A stretch of 64,000 nt of DNA, taken from NCBI RefSeq assembly GCF_028368975.1, contig NZ_JAQNDM010000001.1, forward strand, positions 124,001-188,000. Direction: 5' to 3'. Source of the DNA: Stigmatella ashevillena. Its GTDB lineage: Bacteria > Myxococcota > Myxococcia > Myxococcales > Myxococcaceae. Shown one piece after another: positions 15,157 through 26,876 of this stretch (positions are counted from its first letter, which is position 1; every line of letters begins with the position of its first letter). The notes below the pieces were generated by a model. The model made no database searches and was not told where the DNA came from. It saw nothing but the letters and a program-made list of their open reading frames with translations. A program made the position numbers and the translations under genes.

Positions 15157-15285
15157 GTCCCACACCTCTCGGGCGGAATGGTGGAGCAAGCCACGCGGGA
15201 ATTCCACCGCCGCCTCGGTCCGGAAGCGCGGCTGCCCAGGACACGTAAGGATTTCTTAAGACTTCCAGTGGAGAGTCCTCTCACC

Positions 15286-16260
15286 ATGATTCTGACGAAT
15301 CACCGGAAGAGACGCCTCCCAGCCTTTCCCCTCCTCCTCCTCCTCGCGGCCTGGGGAACCCACTGCGGCTCCTCTTCATCGCCCTCGGACGGGAATGGGG
15401 ATACGGACGGCTCCGAGCTGGCCTACACACCGTGCGCCCTGGAGGAGCGGGCGGGTCAATTCACCGTCGAACTGGGGGACGGCTCCACGTCGGTCCAGGG
15501 ACGCGTCCTCAACGGTGTCGTTCCCTCCAATGTACGGCAGGTCGAAGCACAGGAAGGCCCGTGCCGCCTGCTGCGCGGCCGCTCCCTCTTCTGCAACCCC
15601 GCCTGTGGCGCATCGCAGACCTGTGGCGAGGACGGCGTCTGCATCCCCTATCCCACGCCTCAAGACGTGGGGACCGTGCAGATCCGGGGACTGAAAGCGG
15701 CACTCTCCCTGACGCCCAACTCGGCGAAGTTCTACTTCAACGGAGGGTCCTCTCTGCCGCATCCGGGCTTCGACGCGGGCGCCGCGCTCACGCTGGAGGC
15801 CCGGGGCGCGGAGGTGCCCGCCTTCTCCCTGAGAGGCAGGGGCATCCAAGCCCTCGCCGTGCCCGACGCGCCCATCACCGTCGAAAGGGGAAAAACCGTG
15901 GCGGTTTCCTGGACACCTCCCTCCGACCCCGGGGCCGCTCGCATCCAGATCGTCATGGATCTCGCACACCACGGAGGCATCGCGGCCTCCCTCGAGTGCG
16001 ATGCGGTACCGGACTCAGGGAGCTATGTCATTCCCGCCGGGCTGATCACGAAACTGCTCGACGTGGGGGTGGCGGGCTTTCCCAAGATCACGATCAGCCG
16101 CCGCACGGCGGACTCGACGGACACCTCCGCCGGGTGCGTGGAGCTGCTGGTCCTCTCCCAAACGGAGCGGGAGCTCACCCTTCCGGGACTCGTGTCGTGC
16201 AGCAGCGATGAGGACTGCCCCACCGGACAGAGCTGCCAATCGGACCTGACCTGCCGGTGA
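15286..16260 (+). CDS. Cysteine-rich exported lipoprotein-like protein
   Basis: Start chosen at ATG 15286 because it immediately precedes the basic then hydrophobic signal (RKRRLPAFPLLLLLAAWGTHC); GGAGAG lies ten bases upstream. The 324-residue product has a Cys at the end of the hydrophobic core but a poor lipobox (G-T-H-C), so lipidation is likely but not sure. Downstream is a Cys cluster CNPACGASQTCGEDGVC (about residues 102-120), a beta-rich middle, and a C-terminal CSSDEDCPTGQSC repeat of the type common in myxobacterial surface proteins. No enzyme motif is visible. It opens a run of four co-directional exported proteins. Confidence 0.75.
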   Translation: MILTNHRKRRLPAFPLLLLLAAWGTHCGSSSSPSDGNGDTDGSELAYTPCALEERAGQFTVELGDGSTSVQGRVLNGVVPSNVRQVEAQEGPCRLLRGRSLFCNPACGASQTCGEDGVCIPYPTPQDVGTVQIRGLKAALSLTPNSAKFYFNGGSSLPHPGFDAGAALTLEARGAEVPAFSLRGRGIQALAVPDAPITVERGKTVAVSWTPPSDPGAARIQIVMDLAHHGGIAASLECDAVPDSGSYVIPAGLITKLLDVGVAGFPKITISRRTADSTDTSAGCVELLVLSQTERELTLPGLVSCSSDEDCPTGQSCQSDLTCR

Positions 16261-16320: not shown

Positions 16321-17160
16321 ATGAAAAGAACACTCGTTGTCTCCACCGCCGTGCTCTTCGGTCTGGGCGTGTGTGTCTCTGCTTGTGGCTCCAGCTCCAC
16401 CCCTGAGGATCCTTCAGAGGAAGAGGGCAACCCGGAAAACCCGTCCGGCGGAGACGACGAGCCCGGAGACCCGGCCGATGCGTCCTCCTTCAGCTTCTTC
16501 GTGGCCAGCATCGAATCCATGCGTGAACTGTCGGGCAGCGCGAACGGATTCGGTGGCGATCTCCGCTTCGGGGAGGCCACCGGCATCGCAGGGGCTGACA
16601 AGATCTGCCTGACCATCGCGGACAAGGCACTCCCCGGCTCCGGGCAGAAAGTCTGGCGAGCCTTCCTGAGCGCCTCCACGGGAGGGGCGAACGGCGGCGC
16701 CCTCCACGCCATCGATCGCATCGGCGAGGGCCCCTGGTACGACAGGAATGGCTTGCTCGTCGCCTCGAACAAGGCGGGGCTCCTGGCAGTTCGCCCCCAG
16801 GGTGCCACGCAAATCAAGAATGACCTGCCGAACGAACGGGGCGAGCCGAACCACCAGGGCGTTGACAATCACGACACCCTGACTGGCTCGAACAAGCAGG
16901 GACAGTACGCGGGCAGCAAGAGCAGCACCTGCAACGATTGGACAAGTTCCACCGGCTCCACCGGCAAGCCGACCCTTGGCCACTCCTGGCCCCGGAGCGT
17001 GAGCAACCCCTCCAATGGCGGCAACTGGATGTCGGATCACACCGCCCCTGGGTGCGCGCCGGGCGTCAACCTCTCCCAGAATGGCCCCGGAGGTGGCTCC
17101 GCCACGGTGGGAGGAGGCGGCGGCTACGGGGGAATCTACTGCTTCGCCATCAACCCGTAA
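16321..17160 (+). CDS. Lipoprotein with a DUF1554/lectin-like C-terminal domain
   Basis: The 279-residue product has a signal ending in SVSAC (lipobox) followed by a Glu/Pro-rich acidic linker (about residues 25-58). The remaining domain begins SFFVASIESM and contains GFGGDLRFGEATGIAGADKICLTIA and KVWRAFLSAS, the arrangement seen in DUF1554 and endostatin-like C-type-lectin-fold proteins (GGLAGADxxC ... W-A-xLS). It ends with a Cys-containing glycine-rich segment, GGGGGYGGIYCFAINP. The role is probably carbohydrate or surface binding on the outer membrane. The next lipoprotein gene starts 17 bases after its stop, so they share a transcript. Confidence 0.75.
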   Translation: MKRTLVVSTAVLFGLGVCVSACGSSSTPEDPSEEEGNPENPSGGDDEPGDPADASSFSFFVASIESMRELSGSANGFGGDLRFGEATGIAGADKICLTIADKALPGSGQKVWRAFLSASTGGANGGALHAIDRIGEGPWYDRNGLLVASNKAGLLAVRPQGATQIKNDLPNERGEPNHQGVDNHDTLTGSNKQGQYAGSKSSTCNDWTSSTGSTGKPTLGHSWPRSVSNPSNGGNWMSDHTAPGCAPGVNLSQNGPGGGSATVGGGGGYGGIYCFAINP

Positions 17161-17176: not shown

Positions 17177-19198
17177 TTGCGTCCCCATCTCTTTTTCATC
17201 GCGGCCGCGGCACTGGTGTGCGCCTGCTCGGAGGACTCCTCGTCTGGCGAGGAGCCGGTCCAGGAGGGAACCTGCGCACTGGAAGACGAGACCTCCCGCC
17301 CTGGCTTTCTGTTCCGTCTCGGGTGCCAGAAGGACTTCAACGCCCTCGCCTCCGAGCCGCTCGACACCAGCATCCCGGGAGCCCGCTCGGTGAAGGTCGT
17401 GCTGGATCAATTCGACAACGACACCCTCTACTTCCAGAACAGCACGGAGTACGCGATTCACTATGAGTTCGTCTCCGCGAACCTCTCCGGCGCGGGAAAG
17501 CCGCTCGTGGGCTCGCTCGCGGACTTCAACCAGACGGAATACTACGCTCCCGGCCGACGCTTCCTGCTGGGCTCCGTCACGTACTACGAAGGGCCAGACG
17601 TCTGGGCGCTCGAGATCGCTCCCTATGACACCGCCTCCGCGGCCATGGTGACCCAGCTTTACGACGCCATCCGCAAGGCGGGGTTCTTCGGCCCGGCGCT
17701 GTTCTTTCATCCCACGTCCCAGGCGGTCGAAGCTGAAGCGAAGAAGCTGGCGGCGTCCGTCCCGGTGAAGACGACCGCCGAGCTCTTCGCGGCCATCGAT
17801 TATCAGCCCCTCAATCTGGCGGCCTCGGTCGGCAGGCTGAGGTTCATCACCGCGGACGAGTTGGATCAGACCTATCTGTCCTACCGGGACATGGTCGTGC
17901 TGGACAGGGTGCCCAATGACATCTCCGTGGTGCTGGGGATCATCACCGAGGAGTTTCAGACCCCGCTGTCCCACGTGAACGTCCTCTCTCAGAATCGGAA
18001 GACGCCGAACATGGGGTTGCGCAATGCCACGGCCAACGCCTCGCTGCGAGCACTCGACGGAAAGTGGGTGCGGCTAACCGTGGGTGCTTTCAACTGGAGC
18101 ATCGAGGAGGTGACGAGCACCGAAGCCGATGCCTACTGGGAAGCGCACAAGCCGAAGCCCGTGCAGCTCCCCACCGCTGACCGGACGGTGAAGGATCTAC
18201 GAGACCTCGAGCAGGTTGTCACCGAGGGCTCCTCCTCGCTGCGGGATGCGATCAAGAGCGCCATCCCCGCGTTCGGAGGGAAGGCGGCTCACTACTCGGT
18301 TCTCGCCAATACCCCCGGGCTTCCCGTCCGCAAGGCCTTCGCCGTTCCTGCTGGGTACTACGTGCAATTCATGGAGGAGAACGGCTTCTATGAACGGCTG
18401 GATCAACTGCTGGCGGATCCCGAGTTTCAGCAAAAGCCAGCGGTGCGGGACGCACGCCTCAAAGAGTTCCGGAAGGCCATGGAGGCAGCTCCCGTGAATG
18501 CCGAGTTCCAGGCACTGCTCAAGGCCAAGCTGGCCACGGACTACCCGGGCTTGACCATGCGGTTCCGCACCAGCACGAACAGCGAAGATCTGGAGGGGTT
18601 TCCATGCGCCGGGTGCTACGAGTCCCACACCGGAGACCCCAGCGATTGGGAAGATGTCCTCGACGCCATCCGCGAAACCTGGGCCAGTATCTGGCTGTTC
18701 CGCACCTTCGAGGAGCGCGCCTACAGCAGCATCGACCACAAGTCCGTCGTGATGGCCCTGCTGGTGCACCACAACTTCCCGGACGAAGAGGCCAACGGCG
18801 TGGCGCTCACGGCGAACCCCTTTGATCCTTCAGGCCTCCAGCCCGGGCTCTACGTAAACGTGCAGGCGGGGGGTGACGCGGAAGTGGTCCACCCTCCTCC
18901 TGGAATCACGAGCGATCAGTTCATCTACGAGTTCCATCAACCCGGCCTCCCCATCACGTACCTGTCCCACTCCAACCTGGTGAATGACGGGGAGACGGTG
19001 CTGACGCCTTCTCAGGTCTTCGAGTTGGGAAAAGCCCTCGATGCGATTCATGAGCGCTTCTCCCCCGCCTACGGGCCCCGTGCGGGCAACACGGGCTGGT
19101 ACGCCATGGATGTCGAATTCAAGTTCGACGGAGAACCCGGCCAGATTCCCACATTGACGGTCAAACAAGCGCGTCCCCATCCAGGACGGGGACAGTGA
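17177..19198 (+). CDS. Exported lipoprotein with PEP-synthase-like domains
   Basis: The start is a TTG at 17177 with GAGG five bases upstream; it yields 673 residues beginning with a short signal ending in ALVCAC, a lipobox. The frame is open far upstream but there overlaps the previous gene. After about 100 residues of beta-rich leader, residues near 255-285 read VLGIITEEFQTPLSHVNVLSQNRKTPN in two pieces, which matches the phosphohistidine swivel domain of PEP-utilising enzymes (His about 265). Residues about 355-650 match the ATP-grasp PEP/pyruvate-binding domain: FGGKAAHYSVL, FAVPAGYYVQFM, MRFRTSTNSEDLEGF and VKQARPHP at the end. In PEP synthases these domains come in the reverse order. 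An ATP-dependent enzyme outside the cytosol is odd. Confidence 0.78.
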   Translation: MRPHLFFIAAAALVCACSEDSSSGEEPVQEGTCALEDETSRPGFLFRLGCQKDFNALASEPLDTSIPGARSVKVVLDQFDNDTLYFQNSTEYAIHYEFVSANLSGAGKPLVGSLADFNQTEYYAPGRRFLLGSVTYYEGPDVWALEIAPYDTASAAMVTQLYDAIRKAGFFGPALFFHPTSQAVEAEAKKLAASVPVKTTAELFAAIDYQPLNLAASVGRLRFITADELDQTYLSYRDMVVLDRVPNDISVVLGIITEEFQTPLSHVNVLSQNRKTPNMGLRNATANASLRALDGKWVRLTVGAFNWSIEEVTSTEADAYWEAHKPKPVQLPTADRTVKDLRDLEQVVTEGSSSLRDAIKSAIPAFGGKAAHYSVLANTPGLPVRKAFAVPAGYYVQFMEENGFYERLDQLLADPEFQQKPAVRDARLKEFRKAMEAAPVNAEFQALLKAKLATDYPGLTMRFRTSTNSEDLEGFPCAGCYESHTGDPSDWEDVLDAIRETWASIWLFRTFEERAYSSIDHKSVVMALLVHHNFPDEEANGVALTANPFDPSGLQPGLYVNVQAGGDAEVVHPPPGITSDQFIYEFHQPGLPITYLSHSNLVNDGETVLTPSQVFELGKALDAIHERFSPAYGPRAGNTGWYAMDVEFKFDGEPGQIPTLTVKQARPHPGRGQ

Positions 19199-19224: not shown

Positions 19225-19932
19225 ATGCGCACCTCTTTCAGGCTCACGCTCGTGGCGTTGATGGGAGTGCTGACCTTCGGATGCGGCGAGGACTCGTCCG
19301 TCCCAGCACCCAGTGGTGAGGGTGACGGCGACGGCAGCCCCCCGATCAATTTGAGCCCCCTGCTGCCATGGACGGCTGGCAACCGATGGATCTACCGGGT
19401 CACCGAGGACGGTGAGGTCTCAGAGAAGGAGACCATCCTCGGAGAGGTGGAGGCCGTCGGAGGGACCGGACCGAACCGGGACACGCTCGCGAACAAAGTG
19501 ACCACCCTCAAAAGCTCTGGCGCCAGGACCCTCAGCTGGCAGGCCGTCGTGGACTCCCGCCTCGTGCGCTACCGCGAGCAATCCCTCCGTGCGAGCACCG
19601 GCACCGTCAAAAGTGAAGAACACTGGGAGCCGGCCAAGCTGCACGTCGACGAAGCGCCCGAGCATGCCGTGGCGGGAGCCAGTTGGCTCGAGACCTATGA
19701 AGAGACGGAGCTCGCGGACGGCGCCAGCTCCGGTTCCACCGTCCGGGAGCGGTGGACGGTCCTTTCTGCCTCGGAGTCCGTCACGGTGCCCGCGGGAACC
19801 TTCGAAGCCGTTGTCTTGCAAAAAGCAGGGGGTGGCACGGCCAAGACGTATTGGTTCGTCCGTGGCATCGGCAAGGTCAAGGAGGAAGGGGGCCAGACCG
19901 AAGAGCTGGTCAGCTACGAAGTCCTCCCCTGA
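19225..19932 (+). CDS. Lipoprotein of unknown function
   Basis: The ATG at 19225 has GGA seven bases upstream and is preferred over a GTG at 19195 that overlaps the preceding stop. The 235-residue product has a signal ending in VLTFGC and a Gly/Asp-rich linker, then a single beta-rich domain starting PLLPWTAGNRWIYRVTEDG and ending TYWFVRGIGKVKEEGGQTEELVSY. This 'PL..G..W.Y.......' start and '(Y/W)FV.GIGKVKE' end are common in a family of secreted beta-sandwich proteins of unknown role. It is the last of the four-lipoprotein cluster and is followed by a 108-base gap. Confidence 0.75.
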   Translation: MRTSFRLTLVALMGVLTFGCGEDSSVPAPSGEGDGDGSPPINLSPLLPWTAGNRWIYRVTEDGEVSEKETILGEVEAVGGTGPNRDTLANKVTTLKSSGARTLSWQAVVDSRLVRYREQSLRASTGTVKSEEHWEPAKLHVDEAPEHAVAGASWLETYEETELADGASSGSTVRERWTVLSASESVTVPAGTFEAVVLQKAGGGTAKTYWFVRGIGKVKEEGGQTEELVSYEVLP

Positions 19933-23722: not shown

Positions 23723-25648
23723 TCAATTCATCGCGGGGAACGGTCCAATGTACCCCGTGTACGAATGCGTCACGCTCAGGTCCGAGCCCACCTTGTTGGT
23801 GTCGGACTCGCCGTAGGGGTGCTGTACCTGGGTCTTGATGTACGCGTACCCGTTGATGTCCGGGTAGAAGTAGACGCCCGTCGTCTCTGAACCGTAGGGC
23901 GCGGAGAAGATGCGGGTCAGCTCGCGCGTGACCAGGTTGTACGCCCACACCATGTCATTCTGATGGCCATTCACCGTGTCCTCTCCAATGAGCAGCGTGT
24001 CGTACCCATTGATGAAGGACAGGTTGTCGGGATTGGCGATGTGGCTCACGCTGCAGAGGTTCGCGGGCGAGGATTTGATGGCGCCCGTGCTGTCCACATA
24101 CGTGTAGGTGGGATCGTGGTAAGGGCTGGTCTCCGGGTAGATGCTCCCGCCCGTGCCTCCCAGCCACACCCCTTCGACCAGGGCCGAGGCGGACTCGGCC
24201 ACGTAGTCGCTGCCAATGGCCGCGTTGGGGGTGATGGCCATCTCATAGACCGCGCCACAGTCATTGCGGGCCAACTGGACATGGTTGGGGCCGCCCAGGT
24301 CCCTGTTCGCGGGATCGCTGATCATCCCGCTGTTCAGCTCACTGAAGGAGACGTAGAGCCGGTGGTTGGTGGGGTTGTAGGTGATGCCCTCGGTCTTGCG
24401 GAACTCGGTGGTCGCCCCCACGTAGGCGGCATACCGGCGCGTCTCCAGCCGCGAGGCCGCCAGCTCCTGGCCCGCCTTCAACTTCAAGCACTCGCGGCCC
24501 GTCTCGGTGTTGATCGGCCGGAAGCCGGAGGCGGCGCTCGGGCACGTGCCATCGGCGGCCTGGGGCTCCGTCTCGAAGATGTGGGAGAACTGGATGCCGC
24601 CGTCGATCAGCGCCTTCACCTGCGCGTCCGTCGCGCTGGGCCCCAGCGGAATCCAGTAGAGGTCCGCCTGGCCCGCGGGCTGGTCTGCCGGGCTGGTCTG
24701 GAACCAACGCGCCGCGTAAAGCTGGCCCTCGGACAGGTCCCCTTCCCGCGCCGCCACGAACATGTTGAAGCCGTCGTTGACCCCGTCGTCGCTCAGGTAG
24801 GCGGTCCTGCGGTCCGGCATCACATAGGCCAGCTCGAGCGCCCGGCGGCCCGCCGCGTAGTGCTTCGACACGGTGGTGGTTCCCGAGCCATCCACGGCCA
24901 CCTCGACCACGAAGCCATACCGGTAGGGCGAGTAGACGGCCTTGGCCTCTTCGATGGTCGCGGTGGTGGGATCCAGCCCCCAGTAGCGGAGCATCGAGCG
25001 GTCCGCCGAGGGAAGCGCGCTCACCGACGCCGCGGTCTCGAAGAGGCGCGCATCCGCCGGGTACTCCTCGCTGGAGAGGTTCGTGCTCCAGGGAGACACG
25101 CTGCCCGCGCACGGCGTCCAGTAGCCTTCCACGCCCGAGAAGTCGATGGGCCGGGTGCTGATGGCCGTGAGCTTGCCATTGGCATCCTGGCTCAGCTCGG
25201 ACAGATACATCGCCGCGGGGGTGGTCTCGAACTGGGTGAGCTCGAAGATCTTGTTCCCCTTCTGGATGAGCGCCGAGAAGTCATTGGACGGAGAGATGAA
25301 CTCCGAACCATCGGTGTTCCGCACCGGACTGCCGTCCTTCTGAATCATGCGCCCGAAGACGTGCCCACTCAGCGAGCGGCCTGTGCGCATCACGGTCTCA
25401 TACTGAATGGAGACCTCTTTGCCATTCACCCGCGCTTTCGGGCTGGCATAGACCGACCGCTTCTGTGCATCCGTGACGGCGACGTTGACGGGCGTGAAGC
25501 TGAGCGACTTGACCGTCTCGCTGGGATTGCCCGGGGGACCCGAAGGCCCTTCGGGTCCCGAGGGTCCTGTGGGACCTGTGTCTCCCGTACACGCGCACAG
25601 CCCCACCGCTGCCAACGCCCACCACCACTTCGAATTTTCCGAGCGCAT
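23723..25648 (-). CDS. PhoX-like (DUF839) lipoprotein with a short collagen-like run
   Basis: The start at 25648 has AAGGAGG six bases upstream; the longer open frame beyond it overlaps the promoter of the divergent gene. The 641-residue product has a signal ending in LCAC (lipobox), and directly after it about six Gly-X-Y triplets (GDTGPTGPSGPEGPSGPPG). The rest is a beta-propeller-type domain with DPTTATIEEAKAVYSPYRYGFVVEV, KHYAAGRRALE, TAYLSDDGVNDGFNMFVA, LIGEDTVNGHQNDMVWAYN and TGVYFYPDINGYAYIKTQVQHP, as in PhoX alkaline phosphatases and related DUF839 proteins. PhoX enzymes hold Ca and Fe ions and cleave phosphate esters outside the cell. Activity here is not assured because the full ligand set was not checked. 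Confidence 0.8.
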   Translation of the reverse strand: MRSENSKWWWALAAVGLCACTGDTGPTGPSGPEGPSGPPGNPSETVKSLSFTPVNVAVTDAQKRSVYASPKARVNGKEVSIQYETVMRTGRSLSGHVFGRMIQKDGSPVRNTDGSEFISPSNDFSALIQKGNKIFELTQFETTPAAMYLSELSQDANGKLTAISTRPIDFSGVEGYWTPCAGSVSPWSTNLSSEEYPADARLFETAASVSALPSADRSMLRYWGLDPTTATIEEAKAVYSPYRYGFVVEVAVDGSGTTTVSKHYAAGRRALELAYVMPDRRTAYLSDDGVNDGFNMFVAAREGDLSEGQLYAARWFQTSPADQPAGQADLYWIPLGPSATDAQVKALIDGGIQFSHIFETEPQAADGTCPSAASGFRPINTETGRECLKLKAGQELAASRLETRRYAAYVGATTEFRKTEGITYNPTNHRLYVSFSELNSGMISDPANRDLGGPNHVQLARNDCGAVYEMAITPNAAIGSDYVAESASALVEGVWLGGTGGSIYPETSPYHDPTYTYVDSTGAIKSSPANLCSVSHIANPDNLSFINGYDTLLIGEDTVNGHQNDMVWAYNLVTRELTRIFSAPYGSETTGVYFYPDINGYAYIKTQVQHPYGESDTNKVGSDLSVTHSYTGYIGPFPAMN

Positions 25649-25736
25649 CCATCCCCTCCTTGGAGGCCGCACCATGCCATAGAAGCAGAGGCGGCGCAGA
25701 GCACGAGTGGAGTTATGCTTGGCCCAGGGGGACCTC

Positions 25737-26876
25737 ATGAAGGTAGCGCAGAAGGTGTGGACCGAGGCGAATGGGTGGCAGGACACAGCCCAGCAGAGCA
25801 AGGGCACGGGGGCCCATCTGGTGCTGCTGTTCGGCGCGAGGGCCCCACTCCAAGACGCTGCGCTCTTCCGGCAGGTTCGCTCCTGGTATCCGGAAGCCCT
25901 CATCGTGGGATGTTCCACTGCGGGTGAGATTTGCGGCACCGAGGTGCTGGATGCTTCCGTGGTGGCCACGGCCGTGTGGTTCGAGCACACCCGGATTCAC
26001 CTGGCCCAGGCCCACCTGGACACCATGGAGCAAAGCCATGACGCGGGGGCGTCCCTGGCCAAGCTGCTGCATCAGCCCGGGCTCTCCCACGTCCTGGTCC
26101 TGTCCGATGGGCTGAAGGTGAACGGCACCGAGCTCGTGCGCGGCCTGCGCGAGCATCTGCCCCGCCAAGTGGCGCTGACGGGAGGACTGGCCGGCGATGG
26201 CCCGGACTTCTTGAAGACGGTCGTCTGCTGTAACAGCGAGCCCATGGAAGGCGGGATCGCCGCCGTGGGCTTCTATGGCGAGCGGCTGCGCATCGGCTAC
26301 GGCTCACTCGGGGGGTGGGATGCCTTCGGACCGGAGCGCCTCATCACCCGCGCCAAGAGCAACGTTCTCTATGAACTCGATGGCCACTCGGCGTTGGAGC
26401 TCTACAAGCAATATCTGGGCGAGCACGCCACGGGCCTTCCCGCCACCGCGCTGCGCTTTCCCCTGTCCCTGCGCAGCGAGCAGGAGGGCTGCGGCCTGGT
26501 GCGCACCGTGCTCAGCATCAACGAGCAGGAGCAGAGCATGACCTTCGCGGGCGACATGCCCGAGGGAGCCTATGCGCGCTTGATGAAGGCCAACTTCGAC
26601 CGGCTCATCGACGGAGCCGCTGGCGCGGCGCGGGAGGGAATCGAGCGCATGGGCAGCTTCCTGCCCGAGTTGGCCGTGCTGATCAGCTGCGTGGGCCGCA
26701 AGCTGGTGCTCAAGCAACGCGTGGAGGAAGAAGTTGAAGGCGTGCGCGAGGTCCTCGGACCGACGCCCGTCTTGACCGGGTTCTATTCCTATGGGGAGAT
26801 CTGCCCGAACGGCGATGTCCCCCGGTGTGAACTCCACAACCAGACCATGACCATCACGGCCTTCTCAGAATCGTGA
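25737..26876 (+). CDS. FIST-domain sensory protein
   Basis: The ATG at 25737 has AGGGGGA five bases upstream. The 379-residue protein has the FIST N domain (about 25-215: LVLLFGARAPLQD, WYPEALIVGCSTAGEICG, LVLSDGLKVNGTELVRGL, VALTGGLAGDG) followed by FIST C (about 220-365: NVLYELDGHSALELYKQYLGEHA, FPLSL, ending TGFYSYGEICPNGDVPRCELHNQTMTITAFSE). FIST proteins are predicted to bind small ligands such as amino acids and feed signals to kinases or chemotaxis. There is no membrane segment. Its stop overlaps the start of the histidine kinase gene by four bases (GTGA), so they are a sensor/transducer pair. Confidence 0.93.
   Translation: MKVAQKVWTEANGWQDTAQQSKGTGAHLVLLFGARAPLQDAALFRQVRSWYPEALIVGCSTAGEICGTEVLDASVVATAVWFEHTRIHLAQAHLDTMEQSHDAGASLAKLLHQPGLSHVLVLSDGLKVNGTELVRGLREHLPRQVALTGGLAGDGPDFLKTVVCCNSEPMEGGIAAVGFYGERLRIGYGSLGGWDAFGPERLITRAKSNVLYELDGHSALELYKQYLGEHATGLPATALRFPLSLRSEQEGCGLVRTVLSINEQEQSMTFAGDMPEGAYARLMKANFDRLIDGAAGAAREGIERMGSFLPELAVLISCVGRKLVLKQRVEEEVEGVREVLGPTPVLTGFYSYGEICPNGDVPRCELHNQTMTITAFSES

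Follow-up and report, generated by a model that had tools for sequence, protein, structure and literature searches.

The window, the whole 64,000-nucleotide stretch of Stigmatella ashevillena DNA analysed here, carries a gene for a predicted exported dikinase-like lipoprotein with three neighbouring genes, here called partners A, B and D (Table 1). The original prediction described this group as a four-lipoprotein cluster. Three of its genes do have normal lipoboxes by eye, but in the gene from 15286 the corresponding sequence, WGTHC, is non-canonical. A few kb from the exported kinase, the minus strand at 23723-25990 encodes a protein that combines a PhoX alkaline-phosphatase domain (PF05787, E 2.4e-18) with a collagen-like stretch scoring under cut-off; by eye, its start resembles a lipobox. 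The stretch 25707-26876 encodes a protein with FIST N and FIST C domains.

Table 1. Features of the dikinase-like lipoprotein locus, in window positions.
Feature	Positions	Strand	Remarks
Partner A, Cys-rich exported protein, no Pfam family	15286..16260	+	ORF opens at 15178; lipobox non-canonical here
Partner B, DUF1554-like lipoprotein	16321..17160	+	weak DUF1554 match
Exported dikinase-like lipoprotein gene	17177..19198	+	673 aa, TTG start
Predicted lipoprotein signal peptide, last residue the lipobox cysteine Cys17	17177..17227	+	sequence; Cys17 of relatives
N-terminal domain, residues 31-208, proposed acceptor domain	17267..17800	+	A2 alignment and AlphaFold2 (AF2)
Swivel phosphohistidine domain, residues 208-313	17798..18115	+	VIA 5fbu and weak Pfam matches
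His266 codon, proposed phosphohistidine	17972..17974	+	conserved in all covering rows
ATP-grasp nucleotide-binding domain, residues 337-673	18185..19195	+	PF01326 and VIA 5hv3, 2ols
Lys369 codon, aligned with Lys22 of RPH-Lm	18281..18283	+	64/64 covering window-type rows
Arg464 codon, aligned with Arg117 of RPH-Lm	18566..18568	+	65/65 covering window-type rows
CAGC: Cys477 and Cys480, proposed disulfide	18605..18616	+	all-or-none pattern
Ser483 codon, aligned with Thr136 of RPH-Lm	18623..18625	+	65/65 covering window-type rows
DVE...KQAR: Asp645, Glu647, Gln664, Arg666, end of ATP site	19109..19174	+	64/64 covering window-type rows
Partner D, DUF3108-like lipoprotein	19225..19932	+	alternative start 19195; PF21347 E 0.0015, under cut-off

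The lipobox, the open reading frame and the TTG start were all found as originally described. The protein of the 673-residue frame (17177-19198) begins LRPHLFFIAAAALVCAC, with the signal ending at Cys17, and by sequence inspection the lipobox VCA-C occupies residues 14-17. This predicted signal peptide with its lipobox and cysteine places the protein among the bacterial lipoproteins. A GAGG lies 5 bases 5' of the TTG.

Relatives were drawn from 145 genomes of the order and 50 loci of a species-representative collection. The search returned 65 copies, comprising every match of at least 45% identity that reached the C-terminus, with the window gene counted twice and the matches of L076 and L084 beginning past residue 300; an automatic rule found a start codon and a lipobox in 59 of the 65. 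Nine identical pairs among these 59, the window gene being one, leave 50 distinct copies, which start with ATG (44), TTG (5, including the window gene) or GTG (1). Six copies had no lipobox by the rule: L057, L066 and L070 were kept for a lipobox-like cysteine seen by eye, and L074, L076 and L084 were excluded as ambiguous, broken and partial. The rule picked the wrong cysteine in L050 and L072, of which L072 was corrected by hand. After exclusion of near-copies, alignment A1 (42 rows) comprised 38 of the 50 distinct rule-passing copies, the window gene and the three copies retained by eye. Cys17 is present in 42/42 rows, which were largely picked for carrying a lipobox.

Translation from a downstream start that skips the signal, or disuse of the TTG, would have undone the original prediction. 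Both were rejected on the GAGG ahead of the TTG and on the starts and lipoboxes of relatives, and the TTG start is supported by this GAGG and by the ATG at the equivalent position in relatives (44/50 copies). Export through the predicted lipoprotein signal is well supported, because a start and lipobox occur in 59/65 copies, Cys17 is retained throughout A1 and other cysteines of the protein are gained or absent pairwise. Positions 477 and 480 are Cys/Cys in 31 A1 rows, Gly/Leu in 11 and mixed in none, and Cys33 and Cys50 are both present in 40/42 rows. In the tree, the 31 rows with Cys477/Cys480 form a single clade, so the pair was gained in one event, and no later single loss of either cysteine was seen within it. 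The presence or absence of both residues together, as expected of a disulfide, suggests that they are paired.

Outside these close relatives, the tree contained several further lipoprotein groups and a 10-row clade without a convincing signal peptide (L024, L026, L029-L031, L112, L113, L121, L131 and L132), several of whose members have Pro/Ala-rich N-termini. Signal labels in the distant groups were assigned by rule and by eye, and 4 of the 10 signal-less rows (L031, L113, L131, L132) pass the hydrophobicity rule with a start that looks unconvincing. Because of this clade, export is not a trait of the whole wider family. L114-L118, a subfamily of roughly 1000-residue proteins, have lipobox-like starts by rule and by eye; in L114, a lamin-tail domain precedes the dikinase part within one frame. 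The window's own genome encodes a paralogue, L003 (G000:C2:5266627-5267526), with a type I-like signal and no lipobox, in which the His motif is kept along with much of the ATP site; it is likely one more exported relative. A second PF01326 protein of this genome, L002/L133 (919-aa frame), was rejected as a relative, as its ATP-grasp domain comes first and its His motif lies near the C-terminus. The tree also places L057, a window-type copy whose contig bears the label Phycisphaerae, among Myxococcota rows, reflecting either transfer or misbinning.

Pfam searches assigned residues 365-668 to the AMP/ATP-binding domain PF01326 (E 2.1e-20, 73.7 bits against a cut-off of 27), which also matched all 42 A1 rows at E <= 1 (best 2.4e-29). 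In the full-length AlphaFold2 model (mean pLDDT 86.5, pTM 0.80), VIA matched residues 337-671 to the ATP-grasp domain of rifampin phosphotransferase (5hv3; Z 29.4, 2.4 A over 292 residues), residues 339-669 to PEP synthase (2ols; Z 27.9, 2.4 A, 288 residues) and residues 208-313 to the swivel His domain 5fbu 766-867 (Z 11.7, 2.5 A, 97 residues). The motif PLSHVNVL, originally read as a swivel motif, occupies residues 263-270 as claimed and falls in this matched swivel fold. Pfam recovers the swivel domain weakly: GWD1_pHisD (PF22973) matches residues 252-316 of the window protein below the level of a GWD-type assignment (E 0.011, 15.7 bits against a cut-off of 27) and 22/42 A1 rows at E <= 1 (best 4.5e-4), and the general PEP-utilizers domain PF00391 matches 9/42 rows at E <= 1 (best 3.4e-4). 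With PF01326 above its cut-off and a predicted swivel fold carrying a histidine, the protein falls within the PPDK/PEP synthase/RPH/GWD dikinase superfamily. The label "ATP-grasp PEP/pyruvate-binding domain" in the original prediction holds for the ATP-grasp part (PF01326, 5hv3) and fails for the rest: no PEP/pyruvate-binding barrel was among the Pfam matches of the window protein and the 42 A1 rows at E <= 1. Since the PEP domain is missing, PEP is not required.

Ahead of the swivel domain, residues 31-208 are predicted to form a separate N-terminal domain, which reached a pLDDT of 94.4 when folded alone with AlphaFold2. It had no match in the PDB (best Foldseek E 0.33, best VIA Z 4.1), which is not proof of a new fold. 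Six residues (D77, H95, Y122, R127, D151 and P179) are invariant in alignment A2, whose 60 rows include the window protein and distant relatives. From the model and this conservation, the N-terminal domain may hold the acceptor.

Conservation of the putative catalytic residues was scored over 68 distinct window-type rows, of which the non-covering ones are fragments, with L027 and L130 left out. Position 266 is His in 64/64 covering window-type rows and in 31/31 rows of three further groups. In a sequence alignment with 5fbs, Lys369, Arg464 and Ser483 pair with Lys22, Arg117 and Thr136 of the rifampin phosphotransferase RPH-Lm. According to an excerpt of the RPH-Lm study (PMC4844700), mutation of any of these three abolished rifampin resistance, and the phosphate carrier is His825. 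Activity was retained in RPH-Lm Glu297Ala (same excerpt), and conservation of Glu647 is weak evidence for catalysis if this residue is the equivalent of Glu297. His266 and the residues of the ATP site also hold in 19 other lipoprotein relatives, the sole exception being a single gap at 369. In two relatives whose signal is type I-like, position 483 is Thr and the last four positions could not be scored. All of the 10 relatives that lack a convincing signal retain His266, Arg464, Ser483, Glu647, Gln664 and Arg666; eight have K at 369 and the other two G, probably a misalignment, and position 645 is D in six and E in four.

A His domain ahead of the ATP-binding domain is the order of plant glucan, water dikinases (GWD). 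The order was originally called the reverse of that in classical PEP synthases, and it is unlike PEP synthase, though it is the order of GWD. GWD and phosphoglucan, water dikinase (PWD) resemble the window protein in having the His domain before a C-terminal ATP-binding domain, and in the weak GWD1_pHisD matches; they differ from it in that it is a predicted exported bacterial lipoprotein in which no starch-binding domain was found. The starch-binding domain of GWD and PWD is of the CBM45/CBM20 type, and no carbohydrate-binding family was among the Pfam matches of the window protein and the 42 A1 rows. An excerpt on GWD and PWD likewise speaks of "C-terminal dikinase domains" (PMC6805951).

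RPH-Lm (5hv1, 5hv3, 5fbs, 5fbu) shares the ATP-grasp fold, the swivel His domain and the equivalents of Lys22, Arg117 and Thr136, the last as Ser. Its order is ATP-grasp, rifampin domain and C-terminal His domain (PMC4844700, excerpt), whereas the window protein has the His domain before the ATP-grasp domain, another N-terminal domain and a lipobox, and scores 58.4 bits with the rifampin phosphotransferase model NF041857 (cut-off 999). PEP synthase and PPDK share the ATP-grasp domain and the swivel histidine, but the window protein lacks their PEP/pyruvate barrel, has another domain order and is predicted to be exported. Identity as a PEP synthase was ruled out by the missing barrel and low model scores (TIGR01418, 58.6 bits against a cut-off of 739.75; NF005057, 64.7 against 598). 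Judged from sequence and model, the protein lacks the acceptor domains of its known relatives; it is a real, conserved, predicted exported member of the dikinase superfamily and, on the tests made, not a PEP synthase, GWD or RPH.

Two other lipoprotein-like genes form a conserved cassette with the kinase gene. In the 37 of 50 loci that were well flanked (at least 3 kb upstream and at least 1 kb downstream), partner A occurred in 32, partner B in 31, both within the flanks in 30 and partner D in 8. Partner B lay directly upstream of the kinase gene on the same strand in 24 of the 37. Partners A and B each have one match in the window's genome. Partner A had no convincing Pfam match in 23 rows; DUF1554 matched partner B weakly in 22/22 rows and Endostatin in 4, matches which we take to indicate a lectin-like fold. 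Locus L023, from the same genus (G078), is a natural loss of the kinase gene, which is split there into separate frames covering parts of the protein, with relatives of partners B and D still adjoining.

In addition, other gene families recur around the relatives of the gene elsewhere in Myxococcota. Profiles built from Pfam-checked seeds found CotH in 13, DUF4956 in 19, VTC in 15 and lamin-tail (LTD) genes in 13 of 50 loci, and at least one of CotH, VTC and DUF4956 in the flanks of 30/50 (25/37 of those with full flanks). Curated family cut-offs were exceeded by 18 of 20 neighbours submitted to Pfam, 10 of the 20 including profile seeds; the DUF4956 neighbours of L036, which also matches MgtC, and of L055 were under cut-off. 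At L084 a short piece matches CotH, and without L036 and L084 the count becomes 28/50; a CotH domain at L059, found by Pfam only, is outside the counts. Over the 195 phylum genomes searched, VTC lay within 10 kb in 9/26 genomes with a window-type kinase and DUF4956 in 7/26 (one of the seven, G051, under the curated cut-off), against 0.09 expected for each, where one of the 26 (G161) has a fragment only, the expected rates assume random placement and ignore kinship, and the nine VTC genomes represent about four related groups. Two distant lipoprotein relatives outside the counts, L118 (G193:C601) and L124 (G149:C362), also lie within about 5 to 7 kb of a VTC and a DUF4956 match.

These neighbourhoods are often shared with relatives of the gene; CotH is an unrelated kinase family, and the window locus itself has no CotH, VTC, DUF4956 or LTD gene nearby. 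The 7 CotH, 2 VTC, 2 DUF4956 and 7 LTD matches of its genome are all on the other contig, where the rejected L133 (G000:C2:6568000-6586000) lies about 6 kb from a CotH-VTC pair. CotH kinase (PF08757) was not among the Pfam matches of the window protein or its relatives. CotH is described as a spore-coat protein kinase (excerpts of PMC12189002 and PMC7112168), and in Gram-positive bacteria pel exopolysaccharide operons occur together with CotH, polyphosphate polymerase and DUF4956 (PMC7112168, excerpt). The CotH protein of L038 has a lipobox-like signal at its start by eye. We favour an envelope polysaccharide or matrix acceptor because of the CotH/VTC/DUF4956 neighbourhoods, the parallel with pel operons and this L038 signal.

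The original prediction held that ATP is not normally available outside the cytosol, so that the protein must use another chemistry or act as a binding scaffold. The excerpted part of a review describes ATP in the fluid of bacterial cultures and, for the E. coli periplasm, quotes 24 +/- 3 uM per 10^10 bacteria with labelled ATP supplied (PMC7432876), and the ATP Km of RPH-Lm is 8.4 uM (PMC4844700, excerpt). With these two figures at hand, the premise is too strong. The step from it is weakened as well, because a scaffold need not keep catalytic residues, yet these are unchanged in all 64-65 covering window-type rows.

Taking sequence and model together, the protein is probably an exported ATP-dependent phosphotransferase of the cell envelope acting through a swivelling histidine, and its mode of action is most likely that of GWD and RPH, an ATP-driven phosphohistidine transfer moved to the envelope. 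After export and lipidation, the protein would be tethered in the envelope, where the ATP-grasp domain would phosphorylate His266 at the expense of ATP, with AMP and Pi as products. The swivel domain would then turn to the N-terminal domain, which would hold the acceptor at a candidate second site formed by D77, H95, Y122, R127 and D151. An envelope or surface polysaccharide is the most likely acceptor, with a surface protein (partner A or B, for example) a less likely one. ATP could come from a small pool in or around the envelope and possibly, as speculation, also from lysed prey. Several points count against this explanation: ATP is scarce in the envelope, the window locus lacks the CotH, VTC, DUF4956 and LTD neighbours, the Pfam matches of the protein include no carbohydrate-binding family, the genomes with VTC nearby are kin, the cysteine pair arose once, one related clade has no convincing signal, and Glu647 says little about catalysis if it corresponds to Glu297 of RPH-Lm.

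Scarce envelope ATP also favours the leading alternative, an exported catalyst other than an ATP-to-acceptor kinase, which would use another donor (polyphosphate or pyrophosphate) or break down stray nucleotides for phosphate recovery. VTC-domain genes near the cassette (9/26 genomes, 15/50 loci) are consistent with another donor, and RPH-Lm mutants that no longer phosphorylate rifampin retain ATP pyrophosphatase activity (PMC4844700, excerpt), which is consistent with nucleotide breakdown. However, the ATP site shows the residue conservation of ATP-using relatives, no VTC gene is found near the window locus, and the conserved N-terminal domain with its invariant polar residues suggests a real acceptor, making this alternative unlikely. 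We consider it improbable, and more so than a different donor, that the protein is a non-catalytic exported binding scaffold or pseudoenzyme, as first proposed. Scarce ATP outside the cytosol, the lectin-like matches of partner B (DUF1554, Endostatin) and the Cys-rich partner A would fit such a role, but His266 and the ATP site are unchanged in the covering window-type rows and, bar the one gap at 369, in the 19 further lipoprotein relatives.

A cytosolic enzyme whose apparent signal is unused, through a wrong start or retention, is very improbable: the TTG start of this genome and the related clade without a convincing signal would allow it, but relatives keep the lipobox behind ATG starts, the cysteines are paired, and partners B and D likewise start like lipoproteins. 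Equally remote is an exported enzyme whose dikinase fold serves ligation, as in the prodigiosin ligases PigC and RedH. The NCBIfam models of these two match the ATP-grasp part weakly, at 38 bits where the cut-offs are 1300 and 1350; PEP synthase and rifampin phosphotransferase models score higher, though all far under their cut-offs.

To our knowledge, no dikinase of this fold has been described outside the cytosol or plastids. Among the papers listed in openly licensed literature, none describes an exported dikinase in its title or the opening of its abstract, which is weak evidence of novelty. An ATP-dependent envelope phosphotransferase could, as we tentatively propose, represent a Myxococcota dikinase lineage working outside the cytoplasm, with an ATP-driven phosphohistidine relay in the envelope that would belong to an exported phosphorylation module together with, in many relatives, CotH kinases, VTC polyphosphate-polymerase domains, DUF4956 membrane proteins and lamin-tail lipoproteins. 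With this family, neighbourhoods of the CotH/VTC/DUF4956 type gain an unrelated kinase, and defined residues and partners become available for experiments. A lipoprotein signal and catalytic residues that are kept together imply usable ATP and phosphohistidine chemistry in the bacterial envelope.
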